Part shown: piece by piece, positions 4,706 to 25,866 of the stretch
Position numbering within the stretch: position 1 is the stretch's first letter
Layout: every line of letters starts with the position of its first letter
Assembly: GCA_015488615.1 (NCBI GenBank)
Contig: WFNM01000121.1
Location: forward strand, 1-49,213
Reading direction: 5' to 3'
Source of the DNA: Sulfurimonas sp.
Lineage (GTDB): Bacteria; Campylobacterota; Campylobacteria; Campylobacterales; Sulfurimonadaceae
Length of the DNA stretch: 49,213 nucleotides
Notes under the pieces: model-generated
What the model was told of the DNA's origin: nothing
The model's input: only the letters and a program-made list of their open reading frames with translations
The model's database searches: none
Made by a program: the position numbers and the translations under genes

Positions 4706-5793
4706 GCTTCAACTCTTTAAAAATCGGAAAATACACTATAGAAAAACCTATCGTTCAAGGTGGAATGGGTGTTGGAATTAGCTGGGATCAACTTGCTGGT
4801 AATGTTTCACTTCAAGGTGGACTTGGTGTTATATCTTCTGTTGGAACAGGCTACTTTAAAAATAAAGAGTACACTAAAAAACTTGTGTCTAATCGCCCTT
4901 TAAGTGAAACAAACTTCTATTCTAAAGAAGGGTTCAACGCTATCATCGAGAGTGCTCGTAGTATCTGTGGTGATAAACCTTTAGCTGCAAATATTCTTTA
5001 TGCTATCAACGACTATGGCCGTGTTGTTCGTGATGCTTGTGAATCTGGTATCGACATCATTATCACGGGTGCTGGACTCCCTACAAATATGCCTGAGTTT
5101 ACTGAGGGCTATCCTGATGTTGCTCTTGTTCCTATCGTATCCTCTGCTAAAGCACTTAAGATTATCTGTAAACGTTGGCAAAAACGCTATAACAGACTTC
5201 CTGATGCAGTTATTGTAGAAGGGCCTAAGTCTGGTGGTCATCAAGGTTTTACTTATGAGCAGTGTAAGATGGAAGAGTATCAGTTAGAAAATATCGTTGC
5301 TCCTGTAGTAGAAGAAGCAGCGAAGTGGGGCGATATGCCAATTATCGCTGCCGGTGGTGTTTGGGATAAGTCTGATATAGAAGAGATGATGCGTCTTGGT
5401 GCTAGTGGTGTGCAGATGGGAACACGTTTCATCGGTACTTATGAGTGTGATGCTCATGCTAACTTCAAAAAAGTTTTACTAGATGCTAAAGAAGAAGACA
5501 TACAACTTATGGGCTCTCCTGTTGGTTATCCAGCACAAGGTGTGGTAACTAAGCTTACACATATGGTAGAAAAACGCGAGGGTCCTGCTATCAAGTGTAT
5601 CTCAAATTGTGTTGCTCCCTGTAACCGTGGTGAAGAGGCAAAGGTAGTTGGTTTTTGTATAGCGGATAGACTCTCTGATGCCTACGAGGGTAACCTTGAA
5701 ACTGGACTTTTCTTCTCAGGAACAAATGGTTACAGACTTAATGAAATTATTACAGTAGAAGAACTTATAAACAAACTTATGCAAGGCGAATAG
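4702..5793 (+). CDS. Nitronate monooxygenase (2-nitropropane dioxygenase) family flavoprotein
   Basis: Predicted FMN-dependent TIM-barrel enzyme of the NMO/2-nitropropane dioxygenase family, which also includes the enoyl-ACP reductase FabK. Visible family motifs are IVQGGMGVGISW at the N-terminus, ILYAINDYGR, GAGLPTNMPEF, VEGPKSGGHQGF (substrate/FMN region), PIIAAGGVWD and GASGVQMGTRFIGT (phosphate binding). The 363 residues fit the family. The phylum-typical position next to tyrS suggests a housekeeping role, but the real substrate is unknown: nitronate detoxification and an enoyl-reductase activity are both possible. A conserved Cys group near the C-terminus (CISNCVAPCN) is notable and not explained by the core fold. 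Confidence 0.85.
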   Translation: MSFNSLKIGKYTIEKPIVQGGMGVGISWDQLAGNVSLQGGLGVISSVGTGYFKNKEYTKKLVSNRPLSETNFYSKEGFNAIIESARSICGDKPLAANILYAINDYGRVVRDACESGIDIIITGAGLPTNMPEFTEGYPDVALVPIVSSAKALKIICKRWQKRYNRLPDAVIVEGPKSGGHQGFTYEQCKMEEYQLENIVAPVVEEAAKWGDMPIIAAGGVWDKSDIEEMMRLGASGVQMGTRFIGTYECDAHANFKKVLLDAKEEDIQLMGSPVGYPAQGVVTKLTHMVEKREGPAIKCISNCVAPCNRGEEAKVVGFCIADRLSDAYEGNLETGLFFSGTNGYRLNEIITVEELINKLMQGE

Positions 5794-11343: not shown

Positions 11344-11361
11344 TTAGCACACTTTTTCTTT

Positions 11362-11401
11362 CAGTCTAAGAATTTTTTCTTAGATTGAACCTCTTTTTTT
11401 C
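11362..11401 (+). terminator. Rho-independent terminator of rpsO
   Basis: An 11-pair stem (CAGTCTAAGAA at 11362-11372 with TTCTTAGATTG at 11377-11387, one G-T pair) with a TTTT loop, followed shortly by a run of T at 11393-11401. It separates rpsO from the chemosensory operon. Confidence 0.8.
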
Positions 11402-11595
11402 TATTAATTAAATCATAAAAACTTATAATTTATAAAAATATAAATGCTATATGACATTGCTCTGTCCCTACTATTCAACTATTCTCTAAATATCCTCATT
11501 TAATATATATTTATCCATTTTTTTTTGTAAATTCAATTCTCTTTTAGTGTTGAAGTAGTAAGATTTGTGCAATTTAATTTTATTGGAGATTTATT
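11402..11595. promoter_or_regulatory. AT-rich leader region of the chemosensory operon
   Basis: Nearly 200 bases without a gene, very AT-rich, with T runs around 11519-11526. The operon promoter must lie here because rpsO ends in a terminator. A possible -10 is TAAGAT at 11559-11564, but no matching -35 and no good sigma-54 or sigma-28 signature is visible, so the promoter class is undecided. The ribosome site TTGGAGAT at 11583-11590 serves the first gene. Confidence 0.45.
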
Positions 11596-12027
11596 GTGTC
11601 GAAAAATAATAATAATGATATAAGTGTAGAAGGTTTAACTTTTTTGGATGATGGTGAAGTTCTCTTTAATGATCTCTATCTTCTTTCTGAAACCGATGAA
11701 AAAGGAATCCTAACTTATGCAAGTGACTCATTTTTTAAAGTAGCAAATATGACAGAAGAAGACTTAATTGGGCAACCGCATAATATAGTTAGACATCCAG
11801 ACATGCCTAGAACAGCATTTAAATCTCTTTGGAATGATGTTCAGTCTAAAGGGTTTTGGACAGGTTATGTAAAGAACTCTCGTAAAGGTGGCGGATACTA
11901 TTGGGTATATGCAACAGTACTTCGTTCTATAGATAAAAGCGGCAATACTAAATATGTATCAATTAGAGTAAAACCTTCACGCGAAGACATTCAAAAAGCA
12001 ATTGAGCTTTACGCAACATTAGATTAA
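11596..12027 (+). CDS. Stand-alone PAS sensor protein, Aer/CetB type
   Basis: Soluble 143-residue protein made almost entirely of one PAS domain (about 25-130). [11 protein letters not shown] at 61-71 and the following FWTGYVKN...[10 protein letters not shown] are typical of the FAD-binding PAS of Aer and CetB, which report cellular redox or electron-transport state. There is no membrane or output domain, so it must act in trans, most simply on the receptor encoded 16 bases downstream, as CetB does on CetA in Campylobacter. Start is GTG at 11596, 5 bases after TTGGAGAT. Flavin binding is inferred from motif similarity; a haem PAS is less likely. Confidence 0.85.
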
Positions 12028-12043
12028 GAGTAAGGAAAATATA

Positions 12044-13933
12044 ATGGCATTAATGAAAAAAGGAAGTTCGTCTTCATCTCACAGTGTAGTCTCTTCAAGT
12101 GGCACAGATAAACGCAAGCAGAGAACATTAGCAAAGCAGCAACAGATAAGTGAAAGTATTGCAGGTGTCTCTATGAGTATCTTAGATAATGCACAAGAGA
12201 GTGTAAGTGCTATAGAACAGCTCAAATCTTCTATGGAACAGATTGCTACTGCAGCAGAAGAAAATAGCGGTGCAAGTGAGCAAGCCCTTTCAAATGTAAA
12301 GAACATTAGCTCAAATATAAATAAAATGACCACAACAATTAATGCAGTAACAGTTTCAACTCTCTCTGCTGGTGATAACATTATGGGTGCAGTTAGTAAA
12401 ATTAATGTAAGTGTTGAACGCATGGGTAATGCAGTAACCGTAGCTAAAGAGTCTTCAACAAAAAGTGAAGAGCTTAAAGAGTCTTCACAAAACATTGGAA
12501 ATGCAGTTGGCTTTATTGCGAAGATTGCAGATCAAACAAATCTTCTTGCCCTAAACGCAGCTATCGAAGCGAGTCGTGCTAAAGAGCATGGAAAAGGTTT
12601 TGCGGTTGTCGCTGATGAGACACGTGCCTTAGCTGGTGAGAGTGAAAAAAATGCAGAGTTTATCTCTGAGCTTGTAAATAAGATTCAGGGAAGTATCGAT
12701 AGCATTATTAAAAGTATTGGTGCTACTACAAATACTATTTCTGGTAATGGAGTAAAAGGTAATGAACTTGCATTAAAGATGGAAGAGCTTACAAAAATAG
12801 CTGTTTATTCTGTAGAAGCTGCAAGAAGTATAGGTTCTTACACTAGTCAACTTGGTGATTTTATAGAAAAAATCAATGATGGTTCTGTAGATATAGCACA
12901 GGCATCTAGCGAGATAGCACTTTCAGTGGAACGCACTCTTAACTCTATAGAAGTCCAGTCAGATGCATTAGCACAAACGGAAGATGATATAAAAGAGTTG
13001 TCAAATCAAGCAGAAGAATTAAAGTACTCTACAGACACAATGAAGTCGGCAGAAGATATCGCTATGAGTGCAGATACTATAGGCGCATCTATGGATGAGA
13101 TTCAAAATGCACTAGAAGAAGTGACAAGTTCCCTTAATCAGATGGAAGACTCTTCACAAAGTACAAATCAGAGTGCTTTAAACAATAAAGAACTTGTTGA
13201 AGCAGGTTTAGGTACAGCAAAAGATATTGATAAGCTTATTGAGATAGCAAGAAGAAACTTTGATCTTTTAAAAATTTCTTTTAATGAAGTAAAATCTTCA
13301 GTTGTTGAAATTAAAACTTCTTTTTCGGATTCTATTTCACAGGGTAATAGTGCAGCAACAGAATTAAATGTTATTGTAAAAGAGACAAAGAGTGTAGATA
13401 AGACAGTTGGGAACATCTCTAACTCAATAGTACAACTTAATATGCTTGCTATTAGTGGAAGTATTGAAGCTGCTCGTGCTGGAGACTTTGGAAAAGGTTT
13501 TGCAGTTGTAAGTGCAGATATTAGAAACTTAGCAAAAGATTCTGAGAGTAATACAGAAAAGATCAATGACATTGTCGAGTCAATGAACTCTGAGATTGAC
13601 ACAGTTAAGGGTGACTGGAATGATCTATTATACTCTCAAGGGATAGAAGAAGCTAGTGTAAATTCTTTAGTAAATGACATTATTGTAATCACAGAGCTTT
13701 TAGTTGATTTACTTGATAAGTATACAGGGCTTAAAGCTACTAATGATCAAAATCTTGAAGGTATGAATCAGGTTATGATTGGTATTAATGAAATTCAAAA
13801 AGCAGTAGAGCTTAGTGCAAGAAACGCAAGTGAATCTCGTAAAGCAAGTGAACTTATTATTGATACTGTAACACATATTAGTGAAGGTGTTGAAGAGTTA
13901 GCAGTTATGGCAGATGAACTACAACAAGGGTAA
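12044..13933 (+). CDS. Cytoplasmic methyl-accepting chemotaxis protein with two signalling tips (DosM-like)
   Basis: A 629-residue, nearly all-helical receptor with no hydrophobic segment, hence soluble. The first 33 residues are a disordered-looking Ser-rich, Lys/Arg-rich tail. Two separate hairpin-tip motifs of the MCP signalling domain follow: residues 153-199 ([19 protein letters not shown], then [15 protein letters not shown]) and 457-498 ([18 protein letters not shown], then [15 protein letters not shown]), about 304 residues apart. Each is flanked by roughly 110 residues of heptad-like helix on each side. V. cholerae DosM is the known precedent for a double-MCP soluble receptor, which stabilises two-layer cytoplasmic arrays. 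The second tip lacks the usual N in LNAA, so the tips may differ in partner choice. No C-terminal CheR-tethering pentapeptide is present. Confidence 0.92.
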
Positions 13934-13948
13934 AAGTAGGTGAAGACT

Positions 13949-15322
13949 ATGCAAGTTGATGAGGTTTTGATTGTAAAAAATGCTCATGAAAATTATGGTA
14001 TATCTACTGAAGATATTAACCAGATTTCAAGAGTTCCAGATTTGATGCTTCTTCCCTTATGTCCATTTGGGGTAAGAGGTTTATGCTCTGTTGGAGGTAG
14101 TGTCGTTTCTATGGTAGATATGAATCTACTTCTTGGGATGTCAGAGGTAAATTTAGCTGATTCTAAGGCAAGAATAATTAGTCTCAATGAAGATATTACT
14201 TCAAATGCACTACTTGTAAGTGATGTGTATAATACTATAGAAATCGACCAAAAAAATATTGAATATATAGAAACTGAAGATGACCCTGTTATAGCTATCT
14301 ATAAGTATGATGATATTTTAGTGCAAGTACTTTCTTTAGAAAAAATGTTTAGTAAAATGAGTAAAGTTGCTATAGAGTCAAAAGAGATAGTAGCAGGGAA
14401 GATAAAAGATAATATAGTAAAAGAAGAAAAGTATAAACGATTTTTAATCTTTGCAATGGAAAACGAAAAATATGCCTTAGATATTGATTTTCTTCAAGAA
14501 ATTATTTTAGCAGATACAAAATATACAAATATTTCTGGAACTTCTGATGAAGTTTTAGGTCTTATTACTCTTAGAGAAGAGTTGCTGGTGGTCATTGATC
14601 TTCGAGTCTATTATGATTTTAAGTCTACAAAGAGTGAATCAAATCGAATTTTAGTTGTTTCTTATAATAATAAAAAAATAGGTCTTCTTATAAATAGTAT
14701 CATAGATATTAAAAATATAGCACTTAAAAACATTGAATATATGAGTGAAGCATTTGAAGGCAATAAAATAGCAGGTGTCATTCATAATGAAGATACATTA
14801 ATATCTTTTTTTGATGATAAACTTATAACAGAAATTTTTATGAAAAATGAGACTTTTATAGATGCAAATATAGATGTTCTAGAGCAAAATGAAAGTACTA
14901 AAGAATATGAAAAAGAAGTTATAATCTTCAAGCTTGCACAAAAAGAGTATGCCTTTGATGTAGATTATGTAGATGAGATCATAGATATGGTGTCTTCGAC
15001 AAAAGTTGCATTTACACAAGAGTATATTGATGGAATAATTAATATTAGAGGTCAGATAGTAGCAACACTTTCTTTTTTTGAGAAATTGAATATTCCAACT
15101 GTAATTACTGAAGAAGCTAAGATTATTATCTGTAATATCGAGAATAACCGTATAGGCTTTATTGTGGATAGTGTTAGTGATATTATGAGTATTGAAAAGG
15201 AGGATATCATAGAAGAGAGTGAAGGTTATTTTAATAATATTCTTCATCTTGATAATGGCAAACGACTTATTCTCTCCATGGATATAAAAAAAATAGTGAG
15301 TTCGGAGCATATAAATGGCTAA
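13949..15322 (+). CDS. Triple CheW-domain coupling protein
   Basis: About 457 residues composed of three consecutive CheW-like domains. Numbered from the GTG at 13940, they span roughly 5-138, 165-302 and 324-455. Each has the pattern of a sheet strand with a hydrophobic core, then [G/R]-x-x-x-[L/I]-[R/G] turns: FGVRGLCSVGGSVVSMVDM; VLGLITLREELLVVIDLR; YIDGIINIRGQIVATLSF. CheW couples receptors to CheA, so a three-domain version could act as a scaffold between receptor tips and kinase. Start choice: the longer GTG at 13940 has a poor ribosome site, while the ATG at 13949 sits 8 bases after AGG, so I prefer ATG. The 3' end overlaps cheB by 8 bases. Confidence 0.85.
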   Translation: MQVDEVLIVKNAHENYGISTEDINQISRVPDLMLLPLCPFGVRGLCSVGGSVVSMVDMNLLLGMSEVNLADSKARIISLNEDITSNALLVSDVYNTIEIDQKNIEYIETEDDPVIAIYKYDDILVQVLSLEKMFSKMSKVAIESKEIVAGKIKDNIVKEEKYKRFLIFAMENEKYALDIDFLQEIILADTKYTNISGTSDEVLGLITLREELLVVIDLRVYYDFKSTKSESNRILVVSYNNKKIGLLINSIIDIKNIALKNIEYMSEAFEGNKIAGVIHNEDTLISFFDDKLITEIFMKNETFIDANIDVLEQNESTKEYEKEVIIFKLAQKEYAFDVDYVDEIIDMVSSTKVAFTQEYIDGIINIRGQIVATLSFFEKLNIPTVITEEAKIIICNIENNRIGFIVDSVSDIMSIEKEDIIEESEGYFNNILHLDNGKRLILSMDIKKIVSSEHING

Positions 15323-16385
15323 AAAAGTACTAATAGTAGATGATTCAGCACTTGTTCGAAAACAGCTAACACAGATGATAGAGACTCTTGGCTTCGAGAT
15401 AGAGACTGCAAGAAATGGTCAAGAAGCAGTAGCTAAGGCAACTAATCAGCAGTACGATGTTATTACAATGGATATTAATATGCCTATTATGGATGGCATT
15501 GAAGCTGTTCGTCAAATAATGCAATCTCAACCAACTGCTATACTTATGGTAAGCTCTTTGACAACTGCAGATGCAAGTATAACTATGGATGCACTTGATT
15601 TGGGTGCAGTTGATTTCATAGCTAAACCTGGAACTATGAATGTTGGAGAAAATGAGAACCGTGAAGAAATTTTAGCAAAAGTAAAATCACTGAGTCGTAT
15701 CTCTCCAAGACGTCTTAAACGAAAGCTTGCACAGCCTTCTCTACGCGAAAGACATCGTGCCACTTCTGAGCGAAGAGAGCGGGCAGTTGTTCATCCATGC
15801 AGCTCTAAAGATATTGAAAAAGTAATTCTTATAGGCTCTTCAACAGGTGGACCAGGCTTGATTGAGCAGATATGCTCTGCTTTTCCTGCAGACTTTAAAC
15901 ATACTGTTTGTATTGTTCAGCATATGCCAGAACAGTTCACTGCTGCATTTGCACAGAGACTAGACCGTGCTGCAAGCCTTAGTGTTCAAGAAACAAAGCA
16001 AAATATGGAACTTCTTCCAGGTCATATTTATGTTGCTAAGGGTGGAGTACATCTTAACTTTGCTAAAAAAGTCTCTGGTAAAATAGTACTTCGTGAAGAC
16101 AGTAAAAAAGGTGATAATTTCTTTCAACCAAGTGTGAACGAAATGATGAAAAGTGCTTTAGAAATTTTTAAGGGTAAAGACTTAGTAGGCGTTATTTTAA
16201 CTGGTATCGGTGATGATGGTGCTGATGCTATGGTGGCTTTAAAAAAAGCTGGTGCATATACTTTAGGTGAAAGTGAAGAGAGTGCTACTGTCTATGGTAT
16301 GCCTAAAGAAGCTTATGATAGAGGCGGAGTTTTAGAACAACTTGCTTTTCCTGCTATCTTAAGAAAAATAGTAGCACTTAGATAG
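15315..16385 (+). CDS. cheB: CheB: receiver plus protein-glutamate methylesterase/deamidase
   Basis: Removes methyl groups from receptor glutamates and deamidates glutamines, giving adaptation. The 356 residues contain an N-terminal receiver domain (D9/D10, phospho-acceptor D53 in TMDINMP, K104 in FIAKPG) and a linker rich in Arg. The C-terminal esterase domain has catalytic Ser in GSSTGGP, His in QHMPEQF and Asp in TGIGDDGADAM. This is the full-length, phosphorylation-controlled form; C. jejuni CheB is known to lack the receiver. Overlap with the upstream CheW gene by 8 bases suggests coupled translation. Confidence 0.96.
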   Translation: MAKKVLIVDDSALVRKQLTQMIETLGFEIETARNGQEAVAKATNQQYDVITMDINMPIMDGIEAVRQIMQSQPTAILMVSSLTTADASITMDALDLGAVDFIAKPGTMNVGENENREEILAKVKSLSRISPRRLKRKLAQPSLRERHRATSERRERAVVHPCSSKDIEKVILIGSSTGGPGLIEQICSAFPADFKHTVCIVQHMPEQFTAAFAQRLDRAASLSVQETKQNMELLPGHIYVAKGGVHLNFAKKVSGKIVLREDSKKGDNFFQPSVNEMMKSALEIFKGKDLVGVILTGIGDDGADAMVALKKAGAYTLGESEESATVYGMPKEAYDRGGVLEQLAFPAILRKIVALR

Positions 16386-16401
16386 AGAAGGGGTGATATA
16401 A

Positions 16402-17025
16402 ATGGCATTAGTAAAAAATCATGAAAAACAGAATATTGTTGAGTTGGAGAGTTATGTTACTTTAGATGAAGCGATAGAAGCATTTGAAAATGCTGATGAA
16501 GATGCAGACAAAGACTATATTATAGAAGAGATTGTAAACTTTCATAATGGTGGAGATTTTCTTATTGAGTATATTTATCAAGAAGACATACACAAAAATA
16601 TTGCTACAAAGATAGCTTCTACTATCTCTTCTATGGATCCAGATGAAGCACCTATTGAAAAGATTATGGAGTTACTTAAACTTGAAAATGCTTATATCCG
16701 TAACCTTGGTATATCAATGCTTCGTAATTTTGGAGCAGCTATTAAGTACTACATTGTGAAATTTTTAATTGGTGAAGACAGAGACTTAAGAATCTTTGCT
16801 ATTAATGTTCTTGGTGATGTTGATTTCTCAGAGTCGCGTGATATGCTAGTTGAGTTACTTCAGACAGAAGAAGATATAAATGTTGCGATGACAGCGGTTG
16901 ATTATATGGGAGAGATAGGAGAAGTGGATGATATACCGCTCCTTGAATCTCTTAAAGAACGTTTTTCTGGTGAGTTCTATGTTGAGTTTGCTGTTGATGG
17001 TGCTATTGCACTCATAAAAGGGTAA
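16402..17025 (+). CDS. HEAT-repeat-like helical protein of the chemosensory operon
   Basis: A 207-residue acidic protein with repeated amphipathic helix pairs of HEAT/PBS-lyase type. The clearest units are around residues 95-120 (NAYIRNLGISMLRNFG), 125-150 (DRDLRIFAINVLGDVD) and 155-185 (DINVAMTAVDYMGEIG). Such repeats are protein-protein interaction scaffolds. There is no catalytic motif, signal peptide or membrane segment. It lies 17 bases after cheB and 5 before cheR, so a role with the adaptation enzymes or array assembly is the contextual guess. I do not recognise a named family. Confidence 0.75.
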   Translation: MALVKNHEKQNIVELESYVTLDEAIEAFENADEDADKDYIIEEIVNFHNGGDFLIEYIYQEDIHKNIATKIASTISSMDPDEAPIEKIMELLKLENAYIRNLGISMLRNFGAAIKYYIVKFLIGEDRDLRIFAINVLGDVDFSESRDMLVELLQTEEDINVAMTAVDYMGEIGEVDDIPLLESLKERFSGEFYVEFAVDGAIALIKG

Positions 17026-17029
17026 GCTC

Positions 17030-17860
17030 ATGGCTCATCTATTATCTAAAGAAAACTTTGCAAAGATCGGAGAATTTATCTATAGAAAGAGTGGAATCAG
17101 TTTAGAAGTTGATAAGCACTTTGATAAGATTGCAAAGTATATAGATAAGCGCTCTGCTGAATTAGGATTGGACAATTTTCGTAAGTACTTTTTTAAACTT
17201 CGTTTTGAAGATAAAGATGGGTTAGAGTTTCAAGAGCTTATGAATGCGGTTACTGTAAATGAGACATATTTTTTTAGAGAAAAAGATCAGTTTGAAGTCT
17301 TGGTAAACTCTATACTTCCTGAACTGCATAAAAAAATGCCAGCTTCAAAAACACTGCGCATACTCTCATCTCCTTGTTCAACTGGTGAAGAGCCATACTC
17401 TATGATACTTCATATCGTAGAAGAGGGTACAGTTGTCGAAGAGAGAGATATTGAAGTAGTAGGTATTGATATTGATTCTACTGTTATTAAAAAAGCTGAA
17501 ATTGCGAAGTATAGTGATCGTTCTGTGCATGCTATACCAAAACCAATTTTAAATAAATGGTTTGTGAAGAAACCATTAGGCTATGAGCTTGGTGATGACC
17601 TTAAAGGAAGTGTGGATTTTCAAGTAGCTAACATTTTTGATAAAGCACAGATGAGAAAGCTTGGAAAGTTTGATGTTATATTTTCAAGAAATATGCTTAT
17701 CTATTTTGATGATGCCTCAAGAAAAGAGGTTGCCATGACTTTTTATGATATGTTAAACCCTGGTGGTTATGTTCTTTTAGGACATGCTGAATATATGAGT
17801 CGAATAGTTTCCGTATTTAATGCGAAGAAAGTTGACAATACTTTGATATACCAAAAGTAA
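17030..17860 (+). CDS. cheR: CheR: SAM-dependent chemoreceptor glutamate methyltransferase
   Basis: Methylates receptor glutamates using S-adenosylmethionine, opposing CheB. The 276 residues show the small N-terminal helical domain followed by the methyltransferase domain. Hallmarks are VNETYFFREKDQFEVL near 79, LSSPCSTGEEPYSM near 112 (SAM-binding loop), FDVIFSRNMLIYFD near 220 and PGGYVLLGHAEYM near 247. Length is typical. It sits 5 bases after the HEAT-repeat gene. The receptor in this operon lacks a pentapeptide tether, so CheR should dock directly on the methylation helices. Confidence 0.96.
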   Translation: MAHLLSKENFAKIGEFIYRKSGISLEVDKHFDKIAKYIDKRSAELGLDNFRKYFFKLRFEDKDGLEFQELMNAVTVNETYFFREKDQFEVLVNSILPELHKKMPASKTLRILSSPCSTGEEPYSMILHIVEEGTVVEERDIEVVGIDIDSTVIKKAEIAKYSDRSVHAIPKPILNKWFVKKPLGYELGDDLKGSVDFQVANIFDKAQMRKLGKFDVIFSRNMLIYFDDASRKEVAMTFYDMLNPGGYVLLGHAEYMSRIVSVFNAKKVDNTLIYQK

Positions 17861-17880
17861 ATAAAAATTAAGGAATATAT

Positions 17881-18255
17881 ATGCCATTAGTAATATTTGT
17901 AGATGATAGTGAGACAGCATTAGCTTCAACGAGAATGGTTACAAACTCAATGCCAATAGAAGTAAAACAGTATACAGAGGCACAGGTTGCCCTAGCAGAA
18001 ATAAAAGCTGGATTAACACCAGACTTAATCATTACAGACCTTAATATGCCTGTAATGAATGGATTTGAGTTTTTAAAAGGGCTACGTGAGGTCCCTGCCA
18101 CGAAACGTACACCAACTCTGATGCTTACAACAGAAACAAAGCCTGAACTTAAGCAACAAGGAAAGGCACTTGGACTAACAGGATGGATAGTTAAACCATT
18201 TAATCCAGCACAACTTAAATCAGCGATAACTAGAGTGCTGCGTTTACCTGCATAA
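17881..18255 (+). CDS. CheY-like response regulator (first of two)
   Basis: Single receiver domain, 124 residues. Acidic pocket D8/D9, phospho-acceptor D53 within IITDLNMPVMNG, Thr in LMLTTE near 83 and Lys in WIVKPF at 105 are all present, so it should be phosphorylated by CheA. The aromatic position equivalent to CheY Tyr106 is Trp (GWIVKP), unlike classic flagellar-motor CheY. It may therefore serve as a phosphate sink or signal to something other than the motor. It is 21 bases after cheR and 10 before the CheZ-like gene. Confidence 0.92.
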   Translation: MPLVIFVDDSETALASTRMVTNSMPIEVKQYTEAQVALAEIKAGLTPDLIITDLNMPVMNGFEFLKGLREVPATKRTPTLMLTTETKPELKQQGKALGLTGWIVKPFNPAQLKSAITRVLRLPA

Positions 18256-18264
18256 GGACTAAAA

Positions 18265-18657
18265 ATGATAATGCTTGATTCGATAGATGAACTACTTACA
18301 CATATTAAAGAGGTACAGCTTGATGTTATAGAACTGTCAAATGAATCTTTAATGAAAATGAGTAGTTTCATGGAAAAAAATGGTCTTGAAATTGATGAAG
18401 ATATTTCAACTGCTTTGCAGTATCAAGATATTATTACACAACAACTTACTGCGACTATAGATGCGATTGAAAGTGCGAAAACAAGTTTAGATATTTTTTC
18501 GCATGCTTACAAGAGTGATGAGGGTTTAGCTAACGAAAGTATTTCTAAACTCAAAGAAAAACTCAACTTAACTTTGCAAGAAGCTAAAGATAAGAAGAGT
18601 CGGTTTTCTGGAAAATCTGCAGAGAGTTCTGTAGATGATGAAATAGAATTTTTTTAG
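18265..18657 (+). CDS. Small helical protein with CheZ-like D-x-x-x-Q motif (putative CheY phosphatase)
   Basis: A 130-residue, predicted mostly helical protein between two CheY genes. In its central helix QYQDIITQQL supplies D55 and Q59, matching the D-x-x-x-Q spacing of the CheZ active site (D143 and Q147 in E. coli, within QDLTGQ). The end is a Ser/Lys-rich linker followed by an acidic-aromatic tail, DDEIEFF (124-130), resembling the CheY-binding C-terminal peptide of CheZ. It is shorter than E. coli CheZ (214 residues) and overall similarity is low, so the call rests on motif spacing, tail and location. A non-enzymatic CheY-binding adaptor is the alternative. ATG at 18265 fits AAGGA better than the ATG at 18271. 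Confidence 0.6.
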   Translation: MIMLDSIDELLTHIKEVQLDVIELSNESLMKMSSFMEKNGLEIDEDISTALQYQDIITQQLTATIDAIESAKTSLDIFSHAYKSDEGLANESISKLKEKLNLTLQEAKDKKSRFSGKSAESSVDDEIEFF

Positions 18658-18666
18658 GAGAATATT

Positions 18667-19032
18667 ATGCCAACAATAATGGTCGTAGATGATTCAAAAA
18701 CAGTCCGAAACTATCATAGTGCTATACTTAAAAGTATGGGTATGGATATAGTCGAAGCTGAAAATGGAATGGAAGCATTAGAAAAAAGTTTGGGTGCGAG
18801 TATTGATCTCTATTTAGTAGATGTAAATATGCCCATTATGGATGGTTACTCTTTTATAAAAGATCTTCGTAAGCAGGAGAATAATAAAGTTGTACCAGTG
18901 ATTATGGTAACCACTCAAGCAAAAGATATAGATAAAGAAAATGCTTATAAAATTGGTGCGAACCTTTTTGAGACAAAACCTATTAAACCTGATCAGTTAC
19001 AAGCATATATAGATATTTTAGTGAAGAATTAA
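18667..19032 (+). CDS. CheY-like response regulator (second of two)
   Basis: Single receiver domain of 121 residues with D8/D9, phospho-acceptor D52 in LVDVNMPIMDG, Thr82/83 in VTTQAK and Lys104 in FETKPI. It begins 10 bases after the CheZ-like gene, preceded by AGGAG, and ends 11 before cheA. Its position directly before cheA is common for the main output CheY of a chemotaxis operon. The aromatic switch position near 102 is not Tyr (FETKP has Glu), so motor binding cannot be assumed. Confidence 0.93.
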   Translation: MPTIMVVDDSKTVRNYHSAILKSMGMDIVEAENGMEALEKSLGASIDLYLVDVNMPIMDGYSFIKDLRKQENNKVVPVIMVTTQAKDIDKENAYKIGANLFETKPIKPDQLQAYIDILVKN

Positions 19033-19042
19033 GGAAAATATT

Positions 19043-21793
19043 ATGGATCAATTATTAGAACAATTTTTAAGTGAGGCAAGAGAAAACCTTGCTTTCATAG
19101 ATCAAAATATTGGCGAAATCGGTGGAGACGATCCAGAGTTACTTAACTCTGTTTTTCGTGCTGCACATACACTCAAGGGTGGAAGTGGCATTGTAGGTTT
19201 TGAAGCTGTCAAAAATATTACTCACCATGCAGAAGATCTCTTAGATATGCTACGTTCAAACCAGATAGAGTTTAAAAATTCTATGGTAGATGTTCTTTAT
19301 GATGCCTTTGATGAAGTTGTAAATCTCATAGAAGCTGCTGAGGAGACAGGTGATATTGTCGATGCTGATGAAGCTACTGTTGAGACGATTATTGCTAACC
19401 TTAGTGAGCAGATGGGTAAAGAAGTCGAGGGTGAGGAGGAGTGGAGTTTACCATTTACTCTAGCAGATAAAGAGTCTGTTTTAAATCTTCCTCTTAACAC
19501 TCTTCGTAGTGTAAATGATATTAAAATACCTTTTTGCAATGAGACAATAGATGAAGGCTTTACTCAAGAGGCTAATCTCTATGCTATAACATTTGATGTA
19601 GATGATTCTTGTATGGTCTATGGAAATGATCCTATCTATACACTCAGTCTTTTAGAAGAGAAGGTTAAAGGTGTTTTCTCTTGTATGAGTGATGAAAATG
19701 CTAAGGGTGTGCTTAGTGGTACAGAAGATGAAGAGGGACTTCTTTTGAAGTGTTCTCTTACAGCGTTTATCTATGCAACATATGAAGAGATAGAAGATTC
19801 ACTTTTTAACTTTATAGATGAGTTAGAATTTTTACCACTAGATATAAGTTCTCTACTCTCTATATCAAGAGGTGACAGCGGATTACAGATAGACTCACTT
19901 AAAGAGCTCTCTAGTGTGGCAGAAGATTTTGACCTTGCAACTATAAAAAGTGAAGTTGAAAGCTCTATGGAACTTGTTGGCAAAGAGACACTACAGTATG
20001 CAAAACTAGAACGATTTTTAGATATAGTTGGTTTGATTAAAGAGGAAGATACAATAAAGCTCGATGGTTTTTTTCAAACACTTTTCCAAGGAGAAGTATA
20101 CTCTAATGAACATAGTACAAATGAGGAAGTAGCTGGAGTAGAAAATACTGCTCCAATAAGTTCTGAAATAAGAGAGAATTCAGTAGAAGAAGAGAGCAGT
20201 GCACCTGAGCTTACTGAGATTATTCATAAAACTATAAAAAATATTTTTGAACAGCAAGATAAGGCTTTTGCATTTTTAGAGACAGATGAAGATCTCCTAC
20301 GGATGGTAGTTACACTTGAAAAAGCAAGAAAGTTTCTTCCTGATATGCCAGAGATTACATCTAAAGATGACGTTCGTGCCTTTTTAGATGAAAAACTTGG
20401 TCGTGAAGCAGCTCCGCTGCAAGCAAAAGAAGAAGCTGTAATTGAGACAAAAACTGAACTTCTTCCAGAGAAAGAGACTCCTGTAGTTGAAGAGAAGGCA
20501 GTTACACCTGAAGTGACAGCATCAATAGCCCCAGCAGCAGCAAAAGCGAAAGTCGTAAAAGCTGAACCTAAAGAAGAAAAGCACAAAGCGGTAGTTGGTA
20601 AAACAGTAAAAGTAGAACAAGAGTCTATTGATTCTTTAATGAATGTAGTAGGAGAACTTCTTGTAGCAAAGAACTCACTTCCATATTTAGCTGATAATGT
20701 GGTGAGTATGTCTCATGATCAAATAAAACGCGAGATAATGGATAAGTATATTTTTATTAACCGTTTAAGTGAGCAACTTCAAGATCTCATCATGGGCATG
20801 CGCATGCTCCCTATCTCTTATGTGTTTGATAGATATCCTAAACTTGTAAGAGATATAGCAAAAACTCTTAATAAAAAAGTAAAACTAGAGATGTCTGGTG
20901 GTGATACAAAACTTGATAAAAATATGATAGAAATGTTGGCTGATCCTATGATTCATATCATGAGAAATTCACTAGATCATGGTATAGAGATGCCAGATGT
21001 TCGTGAGCAAAAAGGTAAAAATCCTATTGGGTCAGTTACCCTTAAAGCATATGCACAATCTGATAGAATTATAATCGAGATTATTGATGATGGTGCCGGT
21101 ATTAATGTGGAAAGAGTTGCTGGAAAAGTTCTTGAAAAAGGGCTTATGACTCCAGAGCAGATAGATGCACTAAGTGAAAAAGAGATGGCAGAATTAGTTC
21201 TTCTTCCTGGTCTCTCAACGGCAGAGACAATTACGGAGTTTAGTGGTCGTGGTGTAGGTATGGATGTTGTGAAAAAATCTATAGAGAGTTTTGGTGGTAG
21301 TATAGGTATCACTACAAAAGCAAATGAGGGAACAATAATTACACTTGCTATTCCTATGTCTTTAGCTGTGACTTCGTTACTACATATTGAGATGAACTCT
21401 ATTCACTATGGTATTCCGATGGATAGTGTAAGTGAAACAGTAAAGATTGAACGCAGTGAGATAGAATATTTACATAATGAACCATTTGTTTATATTCGTG
21501 GTGATGTCATTCCTTTACTTTTTATAAAAAGTATGTTAAATGAAGGAGAAACTGAAGATCAGCCACTTTCTATAGTAGTGCTCAATATAAAAAATAATCT
21601 TCTTGCTGTCGTTGTTAATAAATTCTTAGGACAGCTTGATGTTGTACAGAAGCCTCTTGTTGGTATTATGGAAGGGCATCCACTTTTTAGTGGAACAGCA
21701 CTTTTAGGGAATGGTCAGATTATCATGGCGATGGATCCTCTTGGACTTTTAAGTATTTGCCAGAAGCTCAAAGAAGATATCAAAGTAGCATAA
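19043..21793 (+). CDS. cheA: Chemotaxis histidine kinase CheA (long form)
   Basis: Autophosphorylating kinase that passes phosphate to the CheY proteins and CheB. Order in the 916 residues: P1 HPt domain 1-120 with the phospho-His H42 in AAHTLKGGSG; an acidic region of unclear fold, about 130-350; a short helical block 390-453; an Ala/Glu/Pro/Lys-rich linker 455-520; P3 dimerisation 523-590; P4 ATPase 595-770 with N-box HIMRNSLDHGIE, IIDDGAGIN and SGRGVGMDVV; P5 CheW-like 772-912. There is no C-terminal receiver, unlike the CheA-Y proteins of Helicobacter and Campylobacter. The 130-453 region is larger than a normal P2 and may contain a localisation segment. Confidence 0.96.
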   Translation: MDQLLEQFLSEARENLAFIDQNIGEIGGDDPELLNSVFRAAHTLKGGSGIVGFEAVKNITHHAEDLLDMLRSNQIEFKNSMVDVLYDAFDEVVNLIEAAEETGDIVDADEATVETIIANLSEQMGKEVEGEEEWSLPFTLADKESVLNLPLNTLRSVNDIKIPFCNETIDEGFTQEANLYAITFDVDDSCMVYGNDPIYTLSLLEEKVKGVFSCMSDENAKGVLSGTEDEEGLLLKCSLTAFIYATYEEIEDSLFNFIDELEFLPLDISSLLSISRGDSGLQIDSLKELSSVAEDFDLATIKSEVESSMELVGKETLQYAKLERFLDIVGLIKEEDTIKLDGFFQTLFQGEVYSNEHSTNEEVAGVENTAPISSEIRENSVEEESSAPELTEIIHKTIKNIFEQQDKAFAFLETDEDLLRMVVTLEKARKFLPDMPEITSKDDVRAFLDEKLGREAAPLQAKEEAVIETKTELLPEKETPVVEEKAVTPEVTASIAPAAAKAKVVKAEPKEEKHKAVVGKTVKVEQESIDSLMNVVGELLVAKNSLPYLADNVVSMSHDQIKREIMDKYIFINRLSEQLQDLIMGMRMLPISYVFDRYPKLVRDIAKTLNKKVKLEMSGGDTKLDKNMIEMLADPMIHIMRNSLDHGIEMPDVREQKGKNPIGSVTLKAYAQSDRIIIEIIDDGAGINVERVAGKVLEKGLMTPEQIDALSEKEMAELVLLPGLSTAETITEFSGRGVGMDVVKKSIESFGGSIGITTKANEGTIITLAIPMSLAVTSLLHIEMNSIHYGIPMDSVSETVKIERSEIEYLHNEPFVYIRGDVIPLLFIKSMLNEGETEDQPLSIVVLNIKNNLLAVVVNKFLGQLDVVQKPLVGIMEGHPLFSGTALLGNGQIIMAMDPLGLLSICQKLKEDIKVA

Positions 21794-21803
21794 GGAGTAT
21801 GAT

Positions 21804-22568
21804 ATGGTAGATTTAATAGTGTTTAGTGTTGGAGAGAATAAATATGCACTGAATATAGAAAATATTCAGCGCATTATTCAGTCAGATACATTGACAAATA
21901 TTCCTAATTCTCATGAGTATATAGATGGTATGATGTCTTATGAAGAGAAAGTTATAAAGGTTATGAACTTTCGTAAATTAATCAATATGCATACCTATGA
22001 GAGCGAACTTAAAACTCTTTTTGAACGTTTAAAGCAAGGGCATAGTGACTGGGTTAATGCTCTGAAAATTTCTGTAGAGACAGGGAAAAATTTTACAAAA
22101 ACACTTAATCCTCATGCTTGTGGTTTAGGAAAGTGGATAGACTCATTTACCGCCTATGATGATCATGTTGTAAAAATTTTAAATGAACTTGTTGAATATC
22201 ATAAGATGCTACACTTAACAGGAGGAGCTGTTCTTGATATGCAAGAGAGAGATCAAGAAAAAGCCATGAAAATGTTTAATGTAGATATTCAAAATATTTA
22301 TGAGCATACAATGGGTGCTTTAGATACATTTGTCGATGAGTTGGACATTGTAGGGAATTCTCTTCAAAAATTGATTATTTATGATAATGCAGAAGGCATT
22401 TTTGCAGTAAAAGTTGATGCAATAGAAGATATAGCTCATATTGAAGAGGATAATATAGCAGATGCTGGATCTAATCATGATATGAATAATTTTTTAGAGT
22501 TAGATGGGGTTTTAGATATGGATGGTGTTTTAATTAATGTCATCAAAACAGTTACATTAGCAAAGTAA
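21804..22568 (+). CDS. CheW protein with an inserted zinc-binding CZB domain
   Basis: The 254-residue protein begins as CheW (1-62: LIVFSVGENKYALNIENIQR...) and ends as CheW (about 186-254: LQKLIIYDNAEGIFAVKVDAI...). The middle (about 66-180) is a four-helix CZB domain: H80 in GHSDWV, C106 in HACGLGKW, and H133/H137 in EYHKMLH. This is the 3-His/1-Cys zinc set of CZB proteins; C106-H133-H137 spacing equals the C52-H79-H83 spacing I recall for E. coli DgcZ. CZB domains sense zinc or hypochlorous acid through the Cys thiolate. The sensor is here placed in the coupling protein rather than the receptor. It lies 11 bases after cheA. Confidence 0.88.
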   Translation: MVDLIVFSVGENKYALNIENIQRIIQSDTLTNIPNSHEYIDGMMSYEEKVIKVMNFRKLINMHTYESELKTLFERLKQGHSDWVNALKISVETGKNFTKTLNPHACGLGKWIDSFTAYDDHVVKILNELVEYHKMLHLTGGAVLDMQERDQEKAMKMFNVDIQNIYEHTMGALDTFVDELDIVGNSLQKLIIYDNAEGIFAVKVDAIEDIAHIEEDNIADAGSNHDMNNFLELDGVLDMDGVLINVIKTVTLAK

Positions 22569-22580
22569 AGGGAAACTACA

Positions 22581-22850
22581 ATGGCAATAACATATGAAAA
22601 CAATGAAGCAAGTTTCACTTCAGTAATTTATGAAGATGAGGTAGTCTCTTTTCGAGATTTTTTACAAGAGAAAGCAGGAGAAGTTCTACAATTTAACTTT
22701 AGCGAGTGCGAAGATATTCACTTAGCTGTACTCCAGCTTATCATGGCATACAAAAAGAACTACGAATGTACTTATGCATTTTGTGACAAAAAAAGTCTTT
22801 ATCAGGCTGTTTTAGAAGGATTTAACACTAGTGAAAACTATTGTAATTAG
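22581..22850 (+). CDS. STAS-like small protein
   Basis: An 89-residue protein with the alternating strand-helix pattern of STAS/anti-sigma-antagonist domains: VVSFRDFLQEKAG helix, VLQFNFSEC strand, DIHLAVLQLIMAY helix, CTYAFCD strand, SLYQAVLEGF helix. The usual phosphorylatable Ser/Thr after the second strand appears replaced (EDIHLAV), so a structural or phospho-independent role is likely. STAS proteins occur in several other chemosensory operons (family knowledge). It starts 13 bases after the CheW-CZB gene, and its 3' end overlaps the parA-like gene by 20 bases. Similarity is structural and modest. Confidence 0.6.
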   Translation: MAITYENNEASFTSVIYEDEVVSFRDFLQEKAGEVLQFNFSECEDIHLAVLQLIMAYKKNYECTYAFCDKKSLYQAVLEGFNTSENYCN

Positions 22851-23571
22851 TAACCGTAAAGGTGGTTCTGCAAAAACTACTACTGCAGTAAACATAGCAA
22901 GTGGACTTGCAAAACATGGTTCGGTATTACTTTTAGATTTAGATACTCAGGGACATGCTTCTATTGGTGTGGGTTGCGAGCCAGATGAAAAACTTGGAGT
23001 GCATTCTATTTTTGAGGGTTCTACACTGAGTGAAACTTTTATTCCTACTGTACATAAAAATCTCACACTCTCTCCTGCACTCGCTCACTTTGATGTGTAT
23101 GAGTATGCAGATCTTCGAGGTATACTTAAAAACCGCTTTAAACGCGAGAAAATAGCAGATTTTTTTGATTACTGTGTTATAGATACTCCTCCAACATTTG
23201 ATGCTCTATTGAAGAACTCTCTTGAAGTTGCTGATAGTGTTGTTATCCCTTTTGTACCACACTACTTAGGTGTTGTAGCTGTAGGACAGATGCTGAGAGC
23301 ACTCTATAAAAGTGCTAAGGCACAAGAGCGAGATATAGCAGATGTAAGTATTTTACCTGTGATGTATAATCCTCATATAAATGAGCACAAAGAGTCTGTC
23401 GAAAAAGTAAAAACTTCTTTTGGTGAGGAAAAACTTCTTTCACCTATAGGTATAGATATTAAACTTGCACAACAATTTGAGTCTGGTGAACCTATCGTTT
23501 TAGATCTTAAACGTTCTAAGGGTATGAAAGATTACAAACGGTGTGTAGAGGAAATTTTACAAAAAATCTAA
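22831..23571 (+). CDS. Orphan ParA-family ATPase (ParC/PpfA-like array-positioning protein)
   Basis: A 246-residue ParA/MinD-type ATPase. The deviant Walker A is RKGGSAKTTT near residue 9, where the usual KGGVGKTT has S-A at the variable positions but both catalytic lysines remain. The LLLDLDTQGHAS motif (Walker A') and YCVIDTPPTFD (Walker B) follow. No parB or parS accompanies it; it is separate from the chromosomal parAB at 35522-37146. Related orphan ParAs in chemotaxis operons position arrays: PpfA for cytoplasmic clusters in Rhodobacter sphaeroides, ParC for polar arrays in Vibrio. Start is GTG at 22831, 10 bases after GAAGGA, inside the STAS-like gene. Confidence 0.85.
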   Translation: MKTIVISNRKGGSAKTTTAVNIASGLAKHGSVLLLDLDTQGHASIGVGCEPDEKLGVHSIFEGSTLSETFIPTVHKNLTLSPALAHFDVYEYADLRGILKNRFKREKIADFFDYCVIDTPPTFDALLKNSLEVADSVVIPFVPHYLGVVAVGQMLRALYKSAKAQERDIADVSILPVMYNPHINEHKESVEKVKTSFGEEKLLSPIGIDIKLAQQFESGEPIVLDLKRSKGMKDYKRCVEEILQKI

Positions 23572-23578
23572 GCTTTAT

Positions 23579-24916
23579 ATGCTAGACTTTGGTATGAATA
23601 TACTAATAGTTGATGATAACATGACAAATAGAATAGTTGTAAAAGCTTTGCTAGAGAACTATGAAGAACAAAATAGTGTAAGATTCGCACTTGAAGAAGC
23701 TACAGATGGTCTCGAAGCAGTAGAAATATGTGCTAAGAAAGAGTTCGATATCGTTCTTATGGATATAAATATGCCAAATATGAATGGCATTGAGGCGAGT
23801 AAAATAATTCGCCAAAATCATCCTAAGCTTATGATTATTGCTATTTCTACAAACGATGATGATGAACAGCGACGTGCAATTTTAAATAATGGTGCAGAGG
23901 ATTATATCTCTAAACCTATAGATCCAGATATATTTAAGCGAAGAATGAAAAACTATCTTGCACTTGTTGAGTCTCGAAAAAGTAAAGTCATAGAAACATC
24001 TCGTTTTGTTAACCTCTTTTCAAATGAAATTTACAATCGTCATACATGTTTCATTTTAGATTCTGAGGATGCTCTTGCAGAATTTTGGGAATTTTTTCTC
24101 TTAAAAGCAAGGGCAAAGTCAAACTATCTTAGTGATGTGATTCGTGTAATAGTTGCATTAGTTGAAAAGCAGATGCAACTCTCTGCAATAAATAAGCTTT
24201 ATATCGAAGAGTCTGAAGATATACAGTACTTTACTTTAACAGGCATAGATGTACTGCCTATAAAAGTAGTAGAGCTAATCTTGAAAAAAAATGAGATGAA
24301 AGAGGGTTTTAAGTTAAGTGCTTCAAAGATCTCTTTTGAGCTTATAAAAGCAAAACAGTATGAAGATGAAACAGTATATAAACCTATAAAGCCTGCTAAA
24401 GCAAAGCAGGTTGAAATCATCAAAACTGTACAAGTTGAACCGCTAACTATGAAAGCTTCAGCTCCATTAGTAGTGTTTGACTACTTAGATAGTGATGATA
24501 TGATCGACTTAGAAGAGTATGCTGGAAAGTTAAACTCACTTATGCTGCTAGTTGGAAGTGACTTAAATGAAGAAGAAGTTGTTGAGATTTACTCCTTTGT
24601 AGATAGGCTTGCTAGCATACTTCATACTTATGCAGAAGCTGTAGATATTTCTGAAGCATTAGCATCCCTCTCGAGAGATATGAGAGATCATATGGCTGTC
24701 TTTCTGGAAAATGCCAACTCTTTTGCCCCTATGTGTTCTGCATTTAGCAAAGATATGTCAAACTGGGTGGAGCAGACTTTTTATACGGGTGCTCCAAGTG
24801 TAGACTTTATGAATGCTACTATTGTCGTAAATTGCCAAACTATTAGCGGTATGCTCACTATGAATGATACTCCAGCAGATGGGGAAGATGACTTTGATGA
24901 TATATTTGATTTTTAA
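23579..24916 (+). CDS. Response regulator with large helical C-terminal region and acidic tail
   Basis: The 445 residues begin with a complete receiver domain (1-125: D12/D13, phospho-acceptor D62 in LMDINMPNMNG, Lys112 in YISKPI). The rest is a novel-looking region with no DNA-binding, GGDEF, EAL or kinase motif: about 140-265 mixed, a Lys-rich linker near 270-285, then a predicted helical block 293-415. It ends in an acidic-aromatic tail with DDFDDIFDF. The start could be ATG 23579 or ATG 23594 (residue 6); neither has a strong ribosome site. As the penultimate gene it may be an operon-specific output or scaffold protein phosphorylated by CheA. Confidence 0.8.
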   Translation: MLDFGMNILIVDDNMTNRIVVKALLENYEEQNSVRFALEEATDGLEAVEICAKKEFDIVLMDINMPNMNGIEASKIIRQNHPKLMIIAISTNDDDEQRRAILNNGAEDYISKPIDPDIFKRRMKNYLALVESRKSKVIETSRFVNLFSNEIYNRHTCFILDSEDALAEFWEFFLLKARAKSNYLSDVIRVIVALVEKQMQLSAINKLYIEESEDIQYFTLTGIDVLPIKVVELILKKNEMKEGFKLSASKISFELIKAKQYEDETVYKPIKPAKAKQVEIIKTVQVEPLTMKASAPLVVFDYLDSDDMIDLEEYAGKLNSLMLLVGSDLNEEEVVEIYSFVDRLASILHTYAEAVDISEALASLSRDMRDHMAVFLENANSFAPMCSAFSKDMSNWVEQTFYTGAPSVDFMNATIVVNCQTISGMLTMNDTPADGEDDFDDIFDF

Positions 24917-24924
24917 GGAGAGTA

Positions 24925-25134
24925 ATGATGTATAAGGTAAAGGTAACAAGCCCATGTAGTTGTTTTGTGAAAAATGGTCTGAATGATTTTCAAGATTTTT
25001 CTACAAAAGAGGAAGCTAAAAAAGAGGCACAATCTCTACTTCACACTATGCAAACTACTTTTTGTGCAAAGCATGAGTTTAGTATGTTAGAGCAGTTTGG
25101 CTCTTTTACTATAATGACTAAATCAAGAAGATAA
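24925..25134 (+). CDS. Small hypothetical protein, last gene of the chemosensory operon
   Basis: A 69-residue frame with a good ribosome site (AAGGAG at 24915-24920). The second ATG at 24928 has the better spacing. It contains three cysteines (C11, C13 within PCSCF, and FCAKH) and a helical middle rich in Lys/Glu/Ala. There is no signal peptide or known domain. Tight spacing (8 bases) to the preceding gene and a sensible codon pattern argue that it is real. Function unknown; a metal or redox role for the Cys/His pairs would be speculation. Confidence 0.65.
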   Translation: MMYKVKVTSPCSCFVKNGLNDFQDFSTKEEAKKEAQSLLHTMQTTFCAKHEFSMLEQFGSFTIMTKSRR

Positions 25135-25149
25135 AAACACTACAAAAGC

Positions 25150-25866
25150 TTAGAGAAATATCTCTACAGCTCTCTCTAAATCCTCTATCGTGTCGATACC
25201 AAATCCAGTTGAAGCAACTTTTACCATAGTGATTTTTTTACCATGATAAATAGCACGAAGTTGCTCTAGTTTTTCTATATCTTCTATGGGTGCATCTTTA
25301 AGAGAACAGAACTCCTTTAAACTCTTTTTTGAAAATCCATAAATTCCGATGTGCCCAAAATACTTCGCTCCTCCACCTTGGTTGTAGGGAATGGCTGAAC
25401 GAGAGAAGTAGATAGCATTATCAGTTTCATCGAGTACTACTTTTACAAGATTAGGATCAATGGCTGCATCTGCATTTATAGCATTGTAGCAACTTCCCAT
25501 AATAAATGAAGCATTGTTTTTTTGCAAGTATTGGAGTTTTTTCATGAGTGCCTCTACAACATCAGGTTCTATAAAAGGCTCATCTGCTTGAACATTGACG
25601 ATAAGTTCATCATCATCCAATTCTAAGATAGTAGCACACTCATGAATGCGGTCTGTACCACTCTTATGTGTTGTAGAAGTAAGCATCGCCTCGATTCCAT
25701 ACTCTTTACAAATTTCAATGATTTTCTCATCATCAGCAGCAACTACGACTCGATCAAGATGTGCTACTCTTTTTGCAGTACGGACAACCATCGGAAGGCC
25801 ACCTATATCTGCAAGTACTTTTTGAGGGAAACGCGAAGATGCTAAACGTGCTGGAATAATAATCAT
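25150..25866 (-). CDS. kdsB: 3-deoxy-manno-octulosonate cytidylyltransferase
   Basis: Activates Kdo as CMP-Kdo for lipid A-core assembly in Gram-negative outer membranes. The 238 residues show MIIIPARLASSRFPQKVLADIGGLPM condensed to its motifs: the nucleotide-binding PARLASSR-x-P-x-K start, then VVVAADDE, THKSGTDRIHE (the conserved Ser-Gly-Thr-[DE]-R) and VNVQADEPFI, with YFSRSAIPY and GHIGIYGF further on. Full length for the family (about 240-250). It stands alone on the minus strand, convergent with the chemosensory operon and divergent from the methyltransferase gene. Confidence 0.96.
   Translation of the reverse strand: MIIIPARLASSRFPQKVLADIGGLPMVVRTAKRVAHLDRVVVAADDEKIIEICKEYGIEAMLTSTTHKSGTDRIHECATILELDDDELIVNVQADEPFIEPDVVEALMKKLQYLQKNNASFIMGSCYNAINADAAIDPNLVKVVLDETDNAIYFSRSAIPYNQGGGAKYFGHIGIYGFSKKSLKEFCSLKDAPIEDIEKLEQLRAIYHGKKITMVKVASTGFGIDTIEDLERAVEIFL
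25151..25166 (-). terminator. Weak hairpin at the kdsB 3' end
   Basis: TAGAGA (25151-25156), AATA loop and TCTCTA (25161-25166) form a six-pair stem over the last codons of kdsB. On the minus strand a T-rich stretch follows about 12 bases later. This is weak as an intrinsic terminator, yet it is the only candidate between the two convergent genes. Confidence 0.3.

Follow-up and report, generated by a model that had tools for sequence, protein, structure and literature searches.

F9 is a class of chemosensory systems defined by DosM, a receptor with two tandem signalling domains, together with CheW3 (Mo et al. 2022, PMC9321776). According to that survey, full F9 systems occur in 64 of 2781 complete-genome species, nearly always together with flagella, and the Campylobacterota have only partial F9 sets that lack cheA and cheY. 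Cluster I of Vibrio cholerae belongs to this class and forms a cytoplasmic array with two baseplates (PMC7534058, PMC3964821), for which no phenotype is known (PMC7534058, PMC11940527). Here we describe an operon of 15 genes located at positions 11596–25134 of a 49,213-nt window (the whole stretch of DNA that was analysed) from Sulfurimonas sp., a member of the Campylobacterota. The core of this operon, comprising DosM, CheW3, CheB, a HEAT-repeat protein, CheR, CheY and CheA, is a full F9-class system.

All the gene contents characteristic of F9 were found in this operon, the genes of which are all on the plus strand. DosM (12044–13933) has two MCPsignal stretches, with signalling tips at residues ~166 and ~466, and no membrane segment was predicted in it. 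CheW3 (13940–15322) consists of three concatenated CheW domains (three PF01584 stretches). CheA (19043–21793; Hpt, dimerisation, ATPase and CheW domains) and the CheY proteins, CheY1 (17881–18255) and CheY2 (18667–19032), each having one receiver domain, are encoded in the same cluster, as are CheB (15315–16385; REC and methylesterase domains), the HEAT-repeat protein (16402–17025) and CheR (17030–17860). The original prediction, made on this DNA from its letters, had named no described system that joins the parts of the operon; as the core matches the known F9 class, the combination cannot be regarded as unprecedented. Its proposal of a self-contained, membrane-free array is supported, because DosM and CheW3 are the published signatures of cytoplasmic F9 arrays (PMC9321776, PMC7534058). 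What appears to have no earlier description in the searchable literature is the extension of the core by ParA, STAS, PAS and CZB components, and a full F9 set in Campylobacterota.

We used the second half of DosM as the query for searching the family genomes. Matches were obtained in 82 of 228 genomes; two were distant (30–34% identity), whereas the rest were 70–98% identical, the nearest named records being Sulfurimonas genomes (up to 98% identity). A sample of 397 genomes from the whole phylum gave only four matches outside the family, at 27–35%. We observed that the gene block is conserved together across many Sulfurimonas and Sulfuricurvum species. Among the 54 loci with enough flanking sequence, the PAS, DosM, CheW3, CheB, HEAT, CheR, CheY2, CheA and STAS genes were present in every one; 52 had ParA, and 52 had the small CheW. 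Of 71 loci, in which some genomes are represented twice, 65 have the canonical gene order, while in the remaining ones either the STAS and CheW genes were swapped or the genes were permuted yet contiguous; in L081 and L083 the operon genes stay together despite rearrangement. As the same genes recur in the same order in dozens of genomes, this arrangement is more than a chance one. In six of eight genomes without F9, rpsO is directly followed by kdsB, leaving a clean empty site, and therefore the operon is gained or lost as one block. The DosM proteins of the relatives are full length and have the same soluble start, without the membrane segments that the original prediction had named as contrary evidence. 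Two distant DosM loci, L059 (genome G570) and L060 (G351), have CheA directly before DosM and a single small CheW-like protein in place of CheW3, and they lack ParA; we take them for a putative reduced relative of F9.

Our reading is that the operon encodes a complete F9-class system with accessory genes, working in the manner set out below, and we put the probability of this reading as a whole at about 75%. The array geometry, ligands, positioning, HEAT role and cross-talk in it are what we infer from the gene content, order, conservation, motifs and block-wise presence or absence seen directly in the genomes. By analogy with the V. cholerae F9 array, DosM rods with a tip at each end would span two parallel baseplates made of CheA, CheW3 and the small CheW(-CZB) protein, and the outcome would be a flat array of two layers that lies free in the cytoplasm. 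The two signalling tips of DosM are about 300 residues apart, and from this geometry its N-terminus should lie at the mid-plane of the array.

The HEAT protein is most likely located at the same place. We observed that two non-homologous proteins, DosM and HEAT, start alike within each locus, with a peptide resembling MALVKK. The respective DosM/HEAT starts are MALMKK/MALVKN in the window, MALVKK/MALVKK in L181 and L184, MAIVKK/MSIVKK in L178, MGFITK/MGFVTG in L176 and MALKKT/MGLKKK in L182; in some loci an internal methionine was taken as the protein start for this comparison. The pattern M[AGSP][LFI][VIMK][KRNT] fits 86 of 96 starts of DosM and likewise 86 of 96 of the HEAT protein, compared with none of the twelve other operon proteins and 3 of 407 background open reading frames. 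The similarity of the two starts within a locus exceeded that of shuffled pairings (P = 5e-5 with the 63 distinct pairs and P = 0.006 with the six loci of Gammaproteobacteria), in a test that ignores the relatedness of the loci, which is a point to be weighed against our reading along with those gathered further below. In a pattern search of nine genomes, the clear protein starts among the matches inspected, which were a part of all the matches, were those of DosM and HEAT, and the other matches inspected were in short frames or in ones that seemed to be internal; a similar start on other proteins was hence rejected for the inspected matches. The AlphaFold2 model of the HEAT protein (HEAT_2 in Pfam) is a 12-helix solenoid with a mean predicted local distance difference test score of 88, in which residues 1–12 are of low confidence, as expected for a free docking peptide, and its fold search returned generic alphaRep/armadillo solenoids only. 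We infer that the two proteins dock at one mid-plane site, where the HEAT protein would most likely bind the same partner or groove as DosM via the shared N-terminal peptide.

Next to the core lies a gene for a ParA ATPase (22831–23571), which overlaps the gene for a small STAS-like protein (gene 12; 22581–22850), an overlap that is usual among the loci of the relatives. The ParA has a deviant Walker A motif, RKGGSAKTTT, and an AAA_31 match, and its closest solved structures are those of ParA/Soj; no ParB gene was found beside it. The assignment of gene 12 to STAS stands for its orthologues, 10 of 26 of which match the STAS_2 profile (best E 1.1e-4), and not for the window protein itself, which gave no match. 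The co-conservation of ParA with the operon supports the earlier proposal of a dedicated ParA. In Rhodobacter, PpfA distributes the cytoplasmic clusters through the N-terminus of TlpT (PMC3964821), and a further precedent for ParA-type positioning is ParC, which positions the clusters in Halothiobacillus (PMC10241942). By analogy, array positioning would be the likeliest role of this ParA, and partitioning of the array at cell division, as the original prediction had it, is a reasonable reading. Most likely, the STAS-ParA pair would spread or position the array over the nucleoid, as PpfA does for the TlpT clusters, so that daughter cells inherit it. The window also encodes a second ParA-family protein (35531–36298, plus strand), Soj-like and ~30% identical to the operon ParA, which is probably the chromosomal parA product.

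Strong DosM matches were also found in 9 of 369 genomes of the Gammaproteobacteria, the class of a Sulfurivirga relative. The gammaproteobacterial loci have DosM-CheW3-CheB-HEAT-CheR-CheY-CheA, with a STAS-like gene after CheA. Three of five of these F9 loci have ParA: it follows the STAS-like gene in L180 and L182, and in L176 a short STAS-like open reading frame and ParA are present after CheR. In L178 and L181 STAS is present and ParA is absent. Judged by these contents, HEAT and STAS seem to belong to the F9 core, and ParA seems to be an extra that is often present beside STAS. The Sulfurivirga locus L176 also encodes, at 4130–5107 between CheA and DosM, a 325-residue protein of unassigned family, and a similar-looking protein is encoded after ParA (12118–13116).

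The ParA could instead anchor the array at the pole, as ParC/ParP do for the Vibrio F6 array, with the CheW-CZB protein as a ParP-like adaptor and no partitioning over the nucleoid. The small CheW gene adjoins STAS-ParA in most loci and is absent together with ParA from L135 and L136; moreover, the CheW neighbour in Halothiobacillus was treated as the partner of ParC (PMC10241942). However, ParA is present without an adjoining small CheW in the gammaproteobacterial L176, L180 and L182 and in L139 of Campylobacterota, and we consider polar anchoring rather unlikely, at roughly one part in four of our belief.

We give the same low weight to the possibility that DosM itself binds DNA, which would place the array on the nucleoid even where ParA is missing. 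The N-terminus of DosM is basic; besides the MALMKK start it has a second motif of 12 residues, KR[RK]xRTLAKQQQ, which is nearly invariant whether or not ParA is at the locus, and FrzCD of Myxococcus offers a precedent for a DNA-binding receptor (PMC5716589). On the other hand, the TLAKQQQ part continues into a coiled coil, and the motif may merely start the helix. The occurrence of this basic motif in loci without ParA led to its rejection as a marker of ParA-dependent systems.

The input side of the array is suggested by the first gene (11596–12027, GTG start), which encodes a stand-alone PAS protein (PAS_3) without any receptor part. It matches the PAS domain of E. coli Aer (8DIK) with an E value of 4.5e-28 and has the QPHNxVRHPDMP motif; it is therefore likely that this protein binds flavin adenine dinucleotide (FAD) and senses redox, which supports the redox input of the original prediction. 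CetB, a redox PAS protein, partners with the receptor CetA. We suggest a CetB-like pairing of the PAS protein with DosM, by which the cellular redox state would most likely be fed into the array.

A zinc/oxidant input was not borne out as an integral one. The small CheW protein (21804–22568; CheW at residues 4–67, CZB at 80–143) has a CZB domain (PF13682) above the cut-off, with His/Cys residues seen by eye, and CheW-CZB is a known architecture (PMC8262984). However, the insert is absent in many orthologues, and in 18 of 69 loci with ParA, i.e., about a quarter of the relatives' operons, the only such CheW is without CZB. Zinc/oxidant sensing is thus not a core function, and we rejected it as such; CZB would add this input in some lineages only. 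The small CheW-CZB gene is duplicated in several lineages (L049, L050, L103, L106, L113 and L116; L111, L114, L115 and L123), either in tandem or flanking STAS on both sides.

On the output side, CheA would phosphorylate CheY1, CheY2 and REC-x, a response regulator (23579–24916) with a REC, an alpha/beta and a helical domain (AlphaFold2, mean score 72), and a CheZ-like protein would remove the phosphate. The latter is the short product of gene 8 (18265–18657), a putative phosphatase. Its earlier description as CheZ-like draws support from the Q-x-Q-D-x-x-x-Q-Q motif (QYQDIxxQQ) and the IEFF-like C-terminal end (DEIEFF), both conserved in 23 orthologues and reminiscent of the catalytic D-x3-Q and the C-terminal CheY-binding peptide of CheZ, and is weakened by the absence of a CheZ profile match in Pfam. 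REC-x ends in an invariant DDIFDF, which resembles the CheY-binding peptide at the C-terminus of CheZ. The middle and helical domains of REC-x gave no clear fold match. Alignments to the REC domain dominated the comparison, and the few chains that aligned over more, among them RssB and LvrC of Leptospira (9qih), superposed poorly.

We observed that the adaptation enzymes of the operon are at times the only ones in a genome. Genome G085 (99% complete) has two CheA, one CheR and one CheB, and both the CheR and the CheB are in the F9 operon. In G097, where F9 has been lost, only CheR and a CheB devoid of the receiver are left between rpsO and kdsB (L247, 2226–3656); these are the sole CheR and CheB found in the genome, in which one CheA remains. 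The two match the F9 versions far better than other types, and in the tree the branch of this CheR, a long one, lies within the F9 CheR clade of Sulfurimonas. These lone F9-derived enzymes suggest that the F9 adaptation enzymes can apparently serve the flagellar F3 array. CheR and CheB would act on DosM in adaptation and probably, at least in some species, on the F3 membrane receptors too. In the tree, F3-type CheR proteins (L266, L263 and L267) are placed among the F9 CheR of Campylobacterota, but with a long branch of 1.46; that the F3 adaptation enzymes may have come from F9 is a lead only.

Several observations weigh against our reading. Two deep loci of Campylobacterota (L135 and L136) and two gammaproteobacterial loci have no ParA although their F9 sets are otherwise full, and therefore such arrays do not need ParA. 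As the basic motif of DosM also occurs where ParA is absent, there is no case for calling it the specific partner of ParA. The array may also include other soluble MCPs of the genome. The output of the system is a guess, because the F9 array of V. cholerae has no known phenotype, and the support throughout is comparison of sequences and models. The broader proposal that STAS-ParA F9 arrays are signalling bodies of the cytoplasm that partition themselves, that DosM and HEAT use their common N-terminal peptide to compete for or share a docking site in them, and that their CheR/CheB are shared with the flagellar F3 array and were perhaps the evolutionary source of the F3 adaptation enzymes in Campylobacterota, is hence offered tentatively, as a minority view that we hold slightly above polar anchoring or DNA binding. 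An ordinary second flagellar chemotaxis pathway that leaves the cytoplasmic architecture unused is improbable: flhA, a flagellar gene, is present in the window and F9 accompanies flagella as surveyed, yet the genome already has an F3-like system of CheV-CheA-CheW type (contig C143), and DosM has no membrane segment.

The layout of the operon is as had been predicted from the letters, with 15 close or overlapping plus-strand genes between a terminator and a convergent gene. All 15 open reading frames were confirmed, their spacing is −20 to +22 nt, and GGAG/AGGA sequences resembling ribosome-binding sites precede each of them at the positions expected from the starts. The Pfam order of genes 1–15 is PAS, double MCPsignal, triple CheW, REC with CheB, HEAT_2, CheR, REC, no match, REC, Hpt through HATPase to CheW, CheW with CZB, no match, AAA_31, REC with an unknown part, and no match. 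The last gene (24925–25134) encodes a 69-residue protein, conserved at the same place in several relatives. Upstream are rpsO and a terminator-like hairpin (11360–11389, plus strand; 13-pair stem with a T-rich tail), and downstream is the convergent kdsB (25150–25866). Another terminator-like stem (19134–19151) lies inside cheA, the region having 11 such sites compared with 5.2 expected. A promoter-like element, TTAGT-N9-GTAAGAT (11544–11564, plus strand), precedes the first gene; its general form, T[TC]AGT-N7-12-GTANN[ACT]T, occurs in 24 of the 62 regions compared upstream of the operon in relatives, where shuffled sequences would give 1.1, and is 30–34 nt from the called start in about half of these 24 matches. 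No convincing sigma-54 or sigma-28 promoter was seen. The host genome amounts to 1.84 Mb in 150 contigs, with the operon on contig C121; DosM is the sole receptor gene within the operon, but there are nine further MCPs in the genome, and for three of these no membrane segment was predicted.

Although the membrane-free F9 chemoreceptor arrays have been imaged well, no function, input or means of positioning is known for them. The F9 operons of this lineage are complete and compact and belong to free-living bacteria. They encode a PAS protein for redox, a ParA linked to the array and a HEAT protein that shares a peptide with DosM, each of which yields a specific testable prediction (on input, inheritance and mid-plane architecture, respectively). 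At the level of genomes, the pattern of CheR and CheB hints that two classes of array engage in cross-talk, and the published picture of only partial F9 sets in Campylobacterota needs correcting.

Among the known systems, cluster I of V. cholerae, compared by description only, has DosM, triple CheW, CheA, CheB, CheR and CheYs in one cluster, as here, and is likewise cytoplasmic by composition; it differs in having further MCP genes, and the literature consulted mentions no ParA, CZB or separate PAS there. The partial F9 sets of Nitratiruptor and Nautilia share DosM, CheW3, CheB and CheR with the operon but have no CheA and no CheY. L061 and L062 resemble such partial sets; a HEAT-like gene was seen there by eye, no STAS or ParA was seen, and their DosM is without the basic motif. 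CheOp3 of Rhodobacter sphaeroides (PpfA, TlpT) is, as in the present case, a cytoplasmic cluster that has a ParA gene of its own next to that of the soluble receptor, whereas TlpT has one ordinary signalling domain, CheA is split into CheA3 and CheA4, and there is no DosM or CheW3. In the Vibrio F6 ParC/ParP and Halothiobacillus ParC systems, a ParA-family ATPase gene also adjoins a CheW-domain gene in a chemotaxis operon, but these are polar membrane arrays, and no STAS partner is described in the literature found. The CheW-CZB proteins already described combine the CheW fold with CZB (PMC8262984), as does the operon's protein, in which CZB interrupts the CheW domain and is present in only some of the orthologues. 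Finally, the PAS protein is of the FAD-PAS type of E. coli Aer and stands alone like CetB of the Campylobacter CetA-CetB pair, while the operon has no membrane receptor partner for it.

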